Shown: positions 55,834 through 64,000 of the stretch, in pieces
Position numbering within the stretch: position 1 is the stretch's first letter
How the letters are laid out: each line of letters starts with the position of its first letter
Source: Clostridia bacterium
GTDB taxonomy: Bacteria > Bacillota > Clostridia > Oscillospirales > Acutalibacteraceae
Assembly: GCA_017399405.1 (NCBI GenBank)
Contig: JAFQCT010000012.1
Location: 329,667-393,666, forward strand
Direction of reading: 5' to 3'
Length of the DNA stretch: 64,000 nucleotides
The notes under the pieces: model-generated
Databases searched by the model: none
What the model saw: only the letters and a program-made list of their open reading frames with translations
Told to the model about the DNA's origin: nothing
Made by a program: the position numbers and the translations under genes

Positions 55834-57162
55834 TTAAGATTTAATTCTAAATATATTTATTTTTTCTTTTTTAAGCAAATATGCAAATGCTCCGAGAGAA
55901 ACAATGCTATCAAAGGCGTTGCCAATACCAAATAGCAAGGCAATACCAACAAGTGATGGGGTCCATATGCCTGTAACATAAAGGATAAAGGCTATACCAT
56001 AATAAACCGTGTTAGTGACAACTGATTCAAAAAGCATATAGTTTGTTTTGCCAAGTCCGTAGAATATAGAGTCAAATATATTTTGAAAAGCGTATAACAC
56101 ATAGAAGCCTACAAGAATAAGAACAAGATTAAATAATTTATCTACATCAGCAAACTGTAAGACATTCGACATAAATGGTTTCCAAAGTGGTATGCTCACA
56201 AACCATAAAGCAGAGATAATTGCGGTTATGCAGAAATACCCAATACTGTTTTTACGGACATTTTCTTTATCAGTTGCGGTTTCTTGTTTAATAAGCTCTC
56301 CAAGTTGCAGTATGGGGAGAAGCAACCACCCCCAAATAAAGTTGTTTGCTACCCAATATGTACCTTGCTCACCTACAACATTTACCATTCGTGAAATCAT
56401 AACCATATAAGCAAGGTTGCGGACAAGAGATTCAAATCCTGATATGCCCCCGATTTTTACGAAATCTTTCATCCAAGCAAAGTTTAGTTTTGCTTTGTTA
56501 AAAACATTGACATTTTCTTTTGAAAGCAAAATAAGAGATATGCTAAGTAAAACAATATTAACAATTATATTTGAATAGCCAATTCCATTTACGCCAAGCT
56601 TTAACGATATAGGCAACGAGGATACAAGAAATGTATCACAAACCAAACTTAATATAAGTCTTATAAATGTTAAAATGTAAATATATTTACTCTTGTTTAT
56701 GGTTATGAGTGCTACAAGTATAAACTGTGAAAGTATTAAAAAGATATTTGCTATACTTTCAATGCGAATGTATGTAGCAGAGTCGCTAATTATGGACTTA
56801 TCGGTTGCCATTAGTGATAAAAGTGATTCTGTAAAGCAAACTATAATGGCAGATAGAACAAGATAAATACCGAACGATATTATGAGTCCTGTTTTAACTC
56901 GATTAGTAAATTCCTTTTTATCGATTACTACCTTTCCTATAAAATAAAATAGAGGTAAAATGATTGCTTCATTTATGATTTCATAAAGCAGATTTACCCA
57001 CGAAAGTTGCCCTGCTATTGAGAAAGACCATTCACCAGGCAAAGAGCCGAGAAAGAATACCCTCACCGTTGTATAAACGGTTGGACACAGCCCTAAAAAG
57101 AGAAGTGCGAAATAAAGTTTGTAGTTAATGTTTGATAATGACAGTTTGAACTTGGAAAACAT
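55834..57162 (-). CDS. MATE-family efflux transporter
   Basis: A 442-residue protein with about twelve membrane helices in the MATE layout (two six-helix halves). Such transporters export drugs or metabolites against sodium or proton flow. AAAGGGG precedes the ATG. Upstream is a structured region and a terminator-like hairpin that might control it. Confidence 0.8.
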   Translation of the reverse strand: MFSKFKLSLSNINYKLYFALLFLGLCPTVYTTVRVFFLGSLPGEWSFSIAGQLSWVNLLYEIINEAIILPLFYFIGKVVIDKKEFTNRVKTGLIISFGIYLVLSAIIVCFTESLLSLMATDKSIISDSATYIRIESIANIFLILSQFILVALITINKSKYIYILTFIRLILSLVCDTFLVSSLPISLKLGVNGIGYSNIIVNIVLLSISLILLSKENVNVFNKAKLNFAWMKDFVKIGGISGFESLVRNLAYMVMISRMVNVVGEQGTYWVANNFIWGWLLLPILQLGELIKQETATDKENVRKNSIGYFCITAIISALWFVSIPLWKPFMSNVLQFADVDKLFNLVLILVGFYVLYAFQNIFDSIFYGLGKTNYMLFESVVTNTVYYGIAFILYVTGIWTPSLVGIALLFGIGNAFDSIVSLGAFAYLLKKEKINIFRIKS

Positions 57163-60936: not shown

Positions 60937-61875
60937 ATGTATAGATTTTTTGGCGAAACAGATGCATATAGCTTGTTTAATACGCTTGCCCGTGTATTAA
61001 CAATTGTTGCAAGCCTTTTTTATTTTAACATTAAAAAAGATTCTATAAGTTTATATTCCAGAACCGTAATAAACTTTATAGAACAAAAAAAATTAAAAAT
61101 CGGAAAGATTAAAGTTGAAAAAATTGTTGAAATTATATTGGTATCTGTTGAATTATTATTAATGGGATATCTTCCTTCTTTAGTAGCTAAGGTAAACCAA
61201 CCGTTTGGTAGGTTGGTAGGAACAGGTGGTAACTATTTTGGTTTATTGACTGTGGTTTGGCTTGTAGTAATTCTGATATCCGTGCTTATTCTGTCTAATC
61301 CAATAAAGCAATTGGACCTTGTAGCAATATTTCTTCCGTTTCGTATGATTTTTACAAGACTTGCTTGTTTCTTTAACGGTTGCTGTTGGGGCGTTCCTTG
61401 GGAATATGGTCCATATAATTACCATTATGACCATCCGGGCAATCAGGTTCCTGTGCAGGCGATTGAAGCAGGGTTTGTGCTGATTATTTTTCTTTTCTTG
61501 TTATGGCATAGAAAAAGAGCAAGACCCGGAACGATGTTCCCGATGTATCTGTTCTTGTATAGCGGATTGAGATTCTTTAACGAGTTCTTTACAGCGGCAG
61601 ACCCTGACATTATAGGACCATTCAATATGTATCACATTTTGTGTGCAATCGGATTTGTTGTTGGCCTTGTAGCTTTCTTTGTTATGAGAAAATACGGAGA
61701 GAAAATTTCTAGTGCGTTTGACAGAACAGTTAACAACAAAATAGATGAAATAACAAGAAAGAAAAAACAAAAAATCGTAGAAGAAAATGAAAGAGCAGAG
61801 GCAGAAATGAAAGAAAGACTTGAAAAGGCAAAAGCGGCAAGGGCGAAAGCATCAGTAAAATACAGAAAAAAATAA
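60937..61875 (+). CDS. Lgt-family (prolipoprotein diacylglyceryl transferase-like) protein
   Basis: A 312-residue membrane protein with about seven helices, related to Lgt, which adds diacylglycerol to lipoprotein Cys residues. The conserved block reads TRLACFFNGCCWG, where E. coli Lgt has RIGNFINGELWG: the Arg is kept but the Asn146 position is Cys. The late YSGLRFFNEFF keeps the Arg and Glu matching R239 and E243. A charged Lys/Glu/Ala tail (about 265-312) is unusual. It may be a specialised paralogue rather than the housekeeping enzyme. Confidence 0.75.
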   Translation: MYRFFGETDAYSLFNTLARVLTIVASLFYFNIKKDSISLYSRTVINFIEQKKLKIGKIKVEKIVEIILVSVELLLMGYLPSLVAKVNQPFGRLVGTGGNYFGLLTVVWLVVILISVLILSNPIKQLDLVAIFLPFRMIFTRLACFFNGCCWGVPWEYGPYNYHYDHPGNQVPVQAIEAGFVLIIFLFLLWHRKRARPGTMFPMYLFLYSGLRFFNEFFTAADPDIIGPFNMYHILCAIGFVVGLVAFFVMRKYGEKISSAFDRTVNNKIDEITRKKKQKIVEENERAEAEMKERLEKAKAARAKASVKYRKK

Positions 61876-61882
61876 TAATTAA

Positions 61883-61917
61883 AAATACCGAAGAGTGAAA
61901 CTCCTCGGTATTTTTTT
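61883..61917. terminator. Bidirectional terminator between Lgt-like and NRPS genes
   Basis: ATACCGAAGAG and CTCCTCGGTAT pair with one mismatch around TGAAA; T-rich tracts follow on both strands. Confidence 0.85.
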
Positions 61918-64000
61918 ATTCACTTAATATGTCGGTTATAATTCGTGCAACTGTATCACTGTTTTCCGTTTGGAAATAGTGAGAGTCTGCATCAATATAA
62001 TAAACCTTATTAAAGTTGCTTGAACGAATTTTCCACAATCTTTCGGCATCCATATGATTCTTTGTAAATATATCCGTTTTACTGATTATTACAGATGTTT
62101 TTGCTTTAATAGGTTGTGCTAAAGTGTAAAAATATTCGGTCAAAAAGTCAGTGTCTTTACGGAATTTTTCTACCATTTCATATTTGTATTCCGTAGAGAA
62201 CTTTTCTATTGGTGCACCTGCTTTAATAAGTTTATGTTGAATTGACCGCTTGAAAGTATAATTCCAACCATTTCGTTTGTGTGGTTTTTCAGAAGGAATA
62301 AATCCAGCTGTGATATAGTTAGAAATTACAATGCCTTGTTTTTCAAGAATGTTTATAATCTGCATTGCAACCGCGGTACCGGCACAGTGAGAATATATAT
62401 TGATTTCTTTAGATTTTGCAAGAACAGCAATCTTTTCGGCAACTTTTTCACATTCTGCGTATGAATGTAAATAATCAACATAATAAAGGGAAAGTTCAGG
62501 TACAATTACTGATAAATCTTTTGTAAGTGCAGCAAATGCAGACGCATCACCACCGGCATAAGGGAATAAGATGAGTGCTTTTGTTGAAGTCGGAACATTT
62601 CTTAAAGTGTAGAAACCGTCACTATCAGGAATATTGCTCTCATCAATAAACTTTGCCAGTTTTTCAGGAGTTGGATTAGCAATAAAATCAGCAGCAGAAA
62701 TGTTTTTAAGTTCATTTTCTGATAAAATTGCAATCATATCGAGACTTGTACCGCCAAGTGCAAAGAAATTTTCATTTCTGCCTACAGACTCAACACCAAG
62801 AATATCCTTGAACAATACGCAAATCAATTTTTCTGTTTCAGTAACAGGAGCTTCTTTAATAGATGTATTGTCAAAAACAACATCAATATTTTTGAGTGCC
62901 TTTCGGTCAAGTTTACCACTTTGATTGAGAGGCATTTTTTCAATGAATTGGAACTTGCTTGGAACCATATAATGTGGCAATTTGTTTTCACAATGTTTCA
63001 AGATTTCATTAGTTGATGATTCATTACCACAACAGAAAGCTACAAGTACATCTTGTCCGTTATTTTCTTTTATTATAATTGCAACAGATTCAATGCCTGA
63101 AACTTCACTGATTACCTTTTCAATTTCCCCTAATTCAATTCTTTGACCGTTAAGTTTGATTTGGTTGTCCATTCTGCCTACATAACAGATTTGACCGTCT
63201 TCACGCCAATAAGCAAGGTCACCTGTTTTGTAGAGTCTACCTTCACCAAATGGGTTAGGTATGAACTTTTCGTTTGTTAATTGTTCGTTGTTAAGATAAC
63301 CTTGTCCAACATTAACACCGGCAATACAAAGTTCACCTGTAACTCCGATTGGTGTTGGATTTAAGTATTTGTCTATGATGTGTAACTGTGTATTGTAGAT
63401 AGGTTTACCAATAGGCACAGGGTCAATGTCAGTTGGTACACAATCATAGTAACTTACATCAACTGCACACTCAGTAGGACCATAAAGATTATGGAGTGTT
63501 ACTTTGTTGTAGTCATAGATATTGTAGAATCTGTTAATACTGTTAGCAGTTAATGCTTCACCTGAAAGGAACACATATTTTACACTATTGAATTTGTATT
63601 GTTCATCAGGATTGTTTTCAAGATATGTTAAGAACAATTCAAATACAGATGGAACAAAGTGTAAATGAGTAACCTTGTTCTTTTCTGTTTCTTGGAGTAT
63701 TTTAGCAGGTAAGAAATGTTCATCAGGTTTAGATGCACAAAGAGTTCTACCAGTAATACCCCACCAGAAGAGTTCCCATACAGAAACATCAAATGTGTAT
63801 GGCGTTTTTTGAAGTATTACATCATTATCTTCTAATGGATAGAAATTATGCATCCAAAGTATTCTGTTAATAGCAGATTTGTGAGAAATTTTTGCACCTT
63901 TAGGATTACCTGTACTACCTGATGTATAGATAACATAAGCAGTATCATTTTCATTTGCAAGGATTTCTGTTTCTTTTATTGTTTCTTTATTGTTAAGAAC
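61916..64000 (-). CDS. Nonribosomal peptide synthetase, C-terminal A-PCP-TE part
   Basis: The last module of an NRPS, open at the window edge; 694 residues are visible. Order: A domain from motif A3 (YTSGSTGNPKG, window residues 25-35), A4-A5 (YTFDVSVWELFW, NLYGPTE), A7-A8 (YKTGDLA, GQRIELGEIE) and A10 (NQSGKLDRKAL); PCP with carrier Ser in LGGTS (codon at 62744-62746); and a thioesterase beginning ILFPYAGGDASAF. Aligning by eye to GrsA, the pocket reads D-V-W-H-F-S-L-V-D-K, the serine code. The TE elbow is SHCAGT, with Cys (codon 62384-62386) in place of Ser; candidate Asp and His lie in KTDIF and DSHYF. No condensation domain is in view. Confidence 0.92.
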   Translation of the reverse strand, partial: VLNNKETIKETEILANENDTAYVIYTSGSTGNPKGAKISHKSAINRILWMHNFYPLEDNDVILQKTPYTFDVSVWELFWWGITGRTLCASKPDEHFLPAKILQETEKNKVTHLHFVPSVFELFLTYLENNPDEQYKFNSVKYVFLSGEALTANSINRFYNIYDYNKVTLHNLYGPTECAVDVSYYDCVPTDIDPVPIGKPIYNTQLHIIDKYLNPTPIGVTGELCIAGVNVGQGYLNNEQLTNEKFIPNPFGEGRLYKTGDLAYWREDGQICYVGRMDNQIKLNGQRIELGEIEKVISEVSGIESVAIIIKENNGQDVLVAFCCGNESSTNEILKHCENKLPHYMVPSKFQFIEKMPLNQSGKLDRKALKNIDVVFDNTSIKEAPVTETEKLICVLFKDILGVESVGRNENFFALGGTSLDMIAILSENELKNISAADFIANPTPEKLAKFIDESNIPDSDGFYTLRNVPTSTKALILFPYAGGDASAFAALTKDLSVIVPELSLYYVDYLHSYAECEKVAEKIAVLAKSKEINIYSHCAGTAVAMQIINILEKQGIVISNYITAGFIPSEKPHKRNGWNYTFKRSIQHKLIKAGAPIEKFSTEYKYEMVEKFRKDTDFLTEYFYTLAQPIKAKTSVIISKTDIFTKNHMDAERLWKIRSSNFNKVYYIDADSHYFQTENSDTVARIITDILSE

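Follow-up and report, generated by a model that had tools for sequence, protein, structure and literature searches.

Here, we describe an NRPS gene ending in a Cys-type thioesterase (TE) and the Lgt paralog gene that lies tail to tail with it, 40 bp away, at the end of a 64,000-nucleotide stretch (the window) of a Clostridia bacterium genome (1.96 Mb in 21 contigs). The minus-strand ORF 61916..64000 encodes 694 aa and runs open into the window end (ORF listing), which is the exact end of contig C10 (393666). Its Pfam domain order is AMP-binding (1.6e-51), AMP-binding_C, PP-binding and Thioesterase, the last at 27.1 bits, barely above the cut-off of 26.4. The features of the locus are as follows.

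61916..64000, minus strand: C-terminal part of the NRPS, A2-PCP-TE, ending at the contig edge, with the remainder likely on contig C6 (ORF and Pfam)
62912..63961, minus strand: adenylation domain A2, core and C-terminal subdomain, pocket DVWHFSLVDK as in EntF (Pfam, alignment, codons)
62645..62824, minus strand: peptidyl carrier domain, motif GGTS; phosphopantetheine Ser codon 62744..62746 (Pfam, codons)
61928..62575, minus strand: thioesterase domain with a Cys nucleophile and a position-II Asp, assigned to the ObiF/SulM type (Pfam, profile search, tree, codons)
62384..62386, minus strand: nucleophile Cys codon within SHCAGT (alignment, codon check)
62072..62074, minus strand: catalytic Asp codon, Cys +104, position II (alignment, codon check)
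61979..61981, minus strand: catalytic His codon, Cys +135 (alignment, codon check)
60937..61875, plus strand: Lgt paralog, 312 aa, with RLACFFNGCCWG in place of GRLGNFINGELWG of E. coli Lgt (ORF, Pfam, alignment, codons)

Two probable halves of the synthetase line

An earlier reading of the window (the sequence-only reading) had proposed a terminal A-PCP-TE module whose assembly line was cut off, and both points agree with the Pfam order and the contig map. Because the window stops where C10 does, sequence past 64000 had to be sought on another contig. C6 (30,449 bp) is the sole other contig with condensation domains above the family cut-off, and its last gene (L008 9621..15449, plus strand, 1943 aa) is open at the contig end. 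The Pfam matches in this gene amount to three stretches of the Condensation family, a complete A domain, a PCP and another A domain that is truncated at the end; read by order and motif, it comprises C-A-PCP, an epimerase-type (E) domain, C and the start of an A domain, with HHFLIDLVSW taken as the E-domain motif. The C6 gene breaks off at ...NAKAVITQ and C10 resumes with VLNNKETIKETEIL..., and the full line is likely a two-module C-A1-PCP-E-C-A2(Ser)-PCP-TE spread over C6 and C10 with ~51 bp missing between them, because the intact relative L013 (2267 aa; goat-caecum Clostridia MAG RGIG1738) carries the same stretch unbroken and 17 residues longer. The join is thus one that we infer from homology between contigs that stay separate sequences; the domain order of the line is read from the sequence, with the E domain recognized by eye from its motif.

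Two further genomes bear on the join. In the genus mate G1039 the same two sides again lie on two contigs, with C apparently directly before the Ser-type A domain. An empty-site comparison used G1029 (75 percent complete), in which a single contig carries the marker genes of both the C6 side and the C10 side, separated by ~11 to 14 kb. Their relative orientation is different, so the nearness of C6 and C10 is supported and the exact join is not. A phosphopantetheinyl transferase is encoded on C20, and a weak Condensation match on that contig (L009 6396..7673) was rejected as an NRPS part, being PapA5-like.

Missed by the sequence-only reading were the Lgt paralog 40 bp away and the first C domain, which lies beside an acyl ligase gene on C6 and makes the line look lipopeptide-like. 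The PDB matches of this C domain are mixed (C, E and heterocyclization), with the CDA C domain matched weakly; the adjacent ligase together with an N-terminal C domain suggests that the NRPS would be lipoinitiated. Of the MbtH and export genes that the same reading had proposed to look for, MbtH was not encountered: the window holds no MbtH-like motif (regular expression), Pfam finds no MbtH domain in the NRPS, the 225 bp that separate the ligase from the NRPS offer no plausible short ORF for MbtH, and NRPS and paralog are only 40 bp apart. The MATE transporter at 55834..57162 was rejected as a cluster member, since cell-division genes intervene and the equivalent stretch of G1039 is without MATE; an export gene was met in the relative G584, where an MFS transporter is fused to the paralog.

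Serine pocket and cysteine thioesterase

The A2 pocket DVWHFSLVDK, which we take to be the textbook Ser code, is identical to that of E. coli K-12 EntF at 10/10 positions (alignment). Among relatives, L013, G190, G076 and both G618 copies read DVWHFSLVD, G584 DVWHFSFVD and G008 DVWHISLVD, the tenth position falling outside several of the pieces used; G756 and G128 have a Ser-type pocket too (by eye), and in G675 and G1041 the pocket is visible in part and Ser-like. The last pocket ahead of the Cys-TE, extracted in 13 cases, is Ser in eight (the window and seven relatives), Thr in three (DFWNIGMVH in G425, G1020 and G987) and DLTK-type in two (DLTKVAHVS or DLTKIANVS, in G988 and G881). A beta-lactone needs a beta-hydroxyl residue, and most members of the Cys-TE clade, not all, follow one; because the Cys-TEs of G988 and G881 stand behind a DLTK-type pocket, the Cys is no strict predictor of a beta-hydroxy residue. 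The A1 pocket of the window line reads DLPKIGEVS and presumably resembles Asn/Asp codes. A one-module form, C-A(Ser)-PCP-TE, is present in G076 and, by eye, in G008, so that acyl-Ser looks like the irreducible core.

The window TE has the elbow SHCAGT with Cys as the nucleophile; the Asp follows at +104 and the His at +135 (alignment; codons checked). There is no Asp near +27, where EntF has one, and the segment +24..+30 reads ITAGFIP as against GLLDTWP in EntF. According to the available excerpts of two papers (PMC6668435, PMC11298585), the triad of ObiF is Cys1146, Asp1254 and His1284, the alternative Asp position being taken by Gly1173, and that of SulM is Cys2818, Asp2926 and His2956; the Cys triad closes a beta-lactone in ObiF and the same layout a beta-lactam in SulM, ObiF C1146S mostly hydrolyses, and both papers tie the layout of Cys and Asp at position II to four-membered ring closure.

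A profile built from eight TEs and run against the PDB returned ObiF1 as best match (7.3e-22), SulM (entry 8W2C, its TE) as second (1.2e-12) and type II TEs after these; neither EntF nor the surfactin type I TE is among the nine matches at 1e-5. In a tree of 24 rows, 16 Cys-TEs form one clade (100/100) apart from seven type II TEs and EntF. The clade consists of seven window-type TEs, G425, G1020, G987, G988, G881, G675, G008, ObiF1 and SulM, and both the Cys nucleophile (16/16) and Asp at position II (16/16) are found throughout; G756, G128, G580, G1037, G1039, G1041 and most stand-alone type II matches (four used) were left out of the tree, and EntF, SulM, G008 and G675 are long branches. 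Within the clade the branching order is without resolution, with open forks and long branches, and the window type has a branch to itself instead of nesting with ObiF. The nearest outgroup is the type II TEs, in agreement with the grouping of the ObiF and SulM TEs with type II TEs stated in the excerpted text of PMC11298585. Since type II TEs likewise carry Asp at position II, the Asp position alone is no proof of ring closure. A stand-alone type II TE was ruled out for the window, as the domain stands in cis behind a PCP and has Cys instead of Ser.

The sequence-only reading therefore holds on these points: no alternative to the Ser code arose on alignment, the Cys lies within the elbow by alignment and codons, kinship with the obafluorin TE is upheld by the best PDB match and the 100/100 clade with ObiF1 and SulM, and the clustering with type II TEs that would have spoken against it did not occur in profile search or tree, where these are the nearest outgroup. 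By its Cys, its Asp at position II and its clade, the window TE is on sequence grounds a putative member of the ring-forming ObiF/SulM Cys-TE type.

The Cys-TE NRPSs that do not end on Ser have other surroundings. Two NRPSs (L088:6832-12402 and L089:6098-14713, both minus strand) have the elbow GQCVG followed by a transporter-like C-terminal part, a DLTK-type last pocket and adjoining glycosyltransferase-like genes (by eye); the Gln-Cys elbow recalls SulM and makes beta-lactam-type products worth a look there. Three Thr-ending ones from other families (L053:8117-15097, minus strand; L086:2810-6700 and L087:3858-7871, plus strand) each adjoin histidine-kinase-like and HD-type response-regulator-like genes (by eye), not an Lgt paralog, and are candidates for threonine beta-lactones.

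Partnership with an Lgt paralog

Across 300 family genomes, the TE profile scores above 330 bits in five genomes (six loci) and the Lgt-paralog profile above 260 bits in the same five genomes (six loci); the next TE scores are 81 (G008), 41 (G580) and 38 bits (G128), and the next paralog score is 109 bits. Among 20 genus mates, the TE is found in G1037, G1039 and G1041; these three also hold the paralog at more than 300 bits, and G1030 gives one weak paralog match (36 bits). Ser-type Cys-TE loci number 14 (window, L013, G190, G076, G618 twice, G584, G008, G1037, G1039, G1041, G756, G675 and G128), with the pocket full in ten, partial in G1041 and G675, and lost at the contig end in G1037 and G1039; G580, where the TE alone is visible, is in no locus count. 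All 14 were found by TE, G584 and G618 having been met first via the paralog and then independently via the TE.

In 12/14 of these loci the paralog neighbours the NRPS or its ligase, being adjacent to the NRPS in ten and past the ligase in two (G076 and G008). It is absent beside the broken NRPS of G675 (ORFs read), a genome whose one match is weak and on another contig, and from the 12.7 kb contig of G128, which has a 64-bit match elsewhere in the genome. None of the three Thr loci (ORFs of at least 150 aa) or two DLTK loci (ORFs of at least 170 aa) has it, and a genome-wide search of those five genomes gave a 36-bit match in G881 only, with a profile that also misses the diverged paralog of G756. 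Placement varies, from past the ligase (G076, G008) to MFS-fused (G584) and same-strand with an overlapping ORF (G756, of another family), and because gene order and flanks differ among loci, the link is more than frozen synteny: NRPS and Lgt paralog form a conserved gene partnership. A fatty-acyl/CoA-ligase-like gene flanks the NRPS in seven of the ten Ser-type loci with that side visible (window C6, L013, where it sits behind two small flavodoxin-like genes, G076, G008, G618 (C35), G584 and G1039), the remaining four loci being cut by the contig end. With flanks visible, it is absent beside the NRPS in G756, which has ketosynthase- and reductase-like genes on that side, and in G128 and G675, the 2/10 loci with a visible 5' side that lack both ligase and Lgt paralog.

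Individual loci differ in detail. In G584 (L052:8831-11065, plus strand) the Lgt paralog is the N-terminal part of a fusion with an MFS transporter (PF07690, 5.6e-24) adjoining the NRPS, which points to modification coupled with export. In G756, which belongs to a different family of the class, the paralog ORF runs the same way as the NRPS and overlaps its 3' end (start codon chosen mechanically). The region (L092:6585-14013, minus strand) is a possible self-contained acyl-serine operon, in which a pair of ketosynthase-like genes and one reductase-like gene accompany a C-A(Ser)-PCP-Cys-TE NRPS (PCP read by eye, no Pfam score) and the Lgt paralog. In G675 (L090:6173-9524, plus strand) a related NRPS lies in two frames (pseudogene or assembly error) with no adjoining ligase or paralog.

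The window paralog matches PF01790 at 75 bits, and a normal Lgt (245 bits) is encoded elsewhere in the genome, on C2. Relative to E. coli Lgt, R143, E202, Y235, R239 and E243 are retained, N146 and E151 are Cys, and the signature NGELWG reads NGCCWG; with the canonical Lgt on C2, and the canonical GRLGNFINGELWG signature and E151 changed, a plain housekeeping Lgt was rejected. Across 12 NRPS-linked paralogs, N146 and E151 are Cys in 12/12 and E202 is kept in 12/12, the R143 position is Arg in four and Lys in eight, R239 is kept in ten and lost in two, and identity to housekeeping Lgt is 15 to 23 percent over aligned columns. In the excerpts available of PMC4728403, E. coli Lgt R143K and E151A/Q are inactive.

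The paralog profile is matched at 1e-10 in 104/300 family genomes, and the weaker matches aligned carry the GCC signature in 13/13 cases. As these 13 (G644, G187 and 11 chosen from many weaker matches, matched segments only) are paralogs outside the NRPS-linked set, the signature is not specific to that set; no NRPS lies within ~7.5 kb on either side of the G644 and G187 genes (2/2 contexts read). In a tree that combines the 12 linked GCC-type paralogs with the 13 others, ten of the linked set group together (100/99) while G008 and G756 lie outside, and a single origin of the linked set appears in 0/200 bootstrap trees; as G008 and G756 are long branches, two recruitments of the paralog to such NRPSs are suggested only. 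We know of no assigned function for GCC-type Lgt paralogs; the role here may be one of modifying, anchoring, export or protection.

Proposed product and known systems

The recurrent core consists of ligase, C domain, Ser module, Cys-TE and Lgt paralog, with extra modules that come and go. In the pathway proposed here, the first condensation domain probably receives its fatty acyl chain from the neighbouring acyl ligase. The E domain would convert the first amino acid (A1 pocket DLPKIGEVS) to the D form, and serine would be the last residue to be added. The chain would pass to the TE cysteine, where the serine hydroxyl would most likely attack its own thioester, as in the obafluorin synthetase, for release as an N-acyl-peptidyl serine beta-lactone, and the Lgt paralog next door, predicted to be a membrane protein, would then modify, anchor or move the product. 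Our best guess, to which we give an even chance of being right, is a two-module lipopeptide synthetase releasing N-acyl-(Xaa-)serine as a beta-lactone. More tentatively, and doubtful as a whole, the locus could define a new lipid or lipopeptide class, in which a Cys-TE-activated fatty-acyl-(Xaa)-serine (beta-lactone or thioester) is joined to a glycerolipid or moved by an Lgt-descended membrane enzyme, possibly recruited twice; an Lgt descendant would then act on a small molecule rather than a protein.

Release need not yield a free ring. With the Lgt paralog as partner enzyme, the Cys-TE might hand its acyl-peptidyl-serine to an acceptor, either a membrane lipid or glycerol, to give a lipid-anchored acyl-serine, a reading that we consider unlikely even though the paralog is the most constant neighbour (12/14 Ser-type loci vs 0/3 Thr and 0/2 DLTK), scores highly with the TE in the same 5/300 family genomes and 3/20 genus mates, has an MFS transporter fused to it in G584 and overlaps the NRPS 3' end in G756. 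GCC-type paralogs also occur with no NRPS nearby (2/2 contexts read), and residues needed in E. coli Lgt, going by the excerpted PMC4728403, are altered (E151 to Cys in 12/12, R143 to Lys in 8/12, R239 lost in 2/12). Ranked just after it, and likewise improbable, is a TE that merely hydrolyses, its Cys an inherited detail and its product a linear N-acyl-(Xaa-)serine. Hydrolysis is the commonest TE outcome and AB3403 a Cys-TE of unknown outcome in the excerpted PMC11298585; in ObiF, however, Cys-to-Ser is what favours hydrolysis, going by the part available of PMC6668435. The family is akin to type II hydrolases in profile search and tree, but the Cys is kept in 14/14 tree members found here.

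Enterobactin synthetase joins units head to tail into an oligolactone, and two or three acyl-serine units could be joined likewise on the window TE. The Ser code shared with EntF and the C-A-PCP-TE layout of one-module relatives would fit; the TE is unlike that of EntF, whose Ser is here Cys and whose Asp is here Gly, with an Asp at position II instead, and EntF is absent from the profile-search matches at 1e-5, all of which makes this outcome quite improbable. Least probable, and concerning the neighbour gene only, a self-resistance copy of the target enzyme (obafluorin clusters carry a resistant ThrRS) would explain a second Lgt homolog adjoining a biosynthetic gene with the normal Lgt elsewhere, yet at 15 to 23 percent identity to housekeeping Lgt and with E151 lost in 12/12 the paralog is unlikely to replace Lgt.

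The locus matters beyond this genome. Few TEs are proven to close four-membered rings, ObiF and SulM being the two described in the excerpts of PMC6668435 and PMC11298585. Relatives of the Cys-TE are numerous in Clostridia and in further genomes of the class (one comes from goat caecum), and most of them stand behind Ser/Thr modules. Ligase, one-module NRPS and Lgt paralog make a compact gene set, small enough to express and test, and a link between the Ser group and an Lgt-family membrane protein would give a first lead on the role of GCC-type paralogs. In the open-access literature, the scope searched (outside which most subscription papers lie), no paper among the matches listed describes this cluster or brings together an Lgt homolog and a Cys-TE NRPS.

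Compared with known systems, the window TE is most like that of ObiF, its best PDB match, with which it has in common the Cys nucleophile, the position-II Asp and a Gly at position I. The terminal residue of obafluorin is a larger beta-hydroxy amino acid, whereas the line described here ends on Ser, has an acyl ligase beside its N-terminal C domain and no Pfam MbtH domain, and is partnered by an Lgt paralog. The SulM TE, the second PDB match, likewise has a Cys nucleophile and Asp at position II; SulM differs in ending on diaminopropionate and in a Gln-Cys-Asn elbow, as described in the excerpts of PMC11298585, where the window has Ser and His-Cys-Ala. EntF has the identical ten-residue Ser pocket and shares its C-A-PCP-TE layout with one-module relatives, but its TE has a Ser nucleophile and Asp at position I and falls outside the Cys clade. 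The window copy of Lgt, in turn, resembles E. coli Lgt in its PF01790 match and in keeping R143, E202, Y235, R239 and E243, and departs from it in reading NGCCWG for NGELWG, with Cys at N146 and E151, in a genome where a canonical Lgt is present elsewhere.
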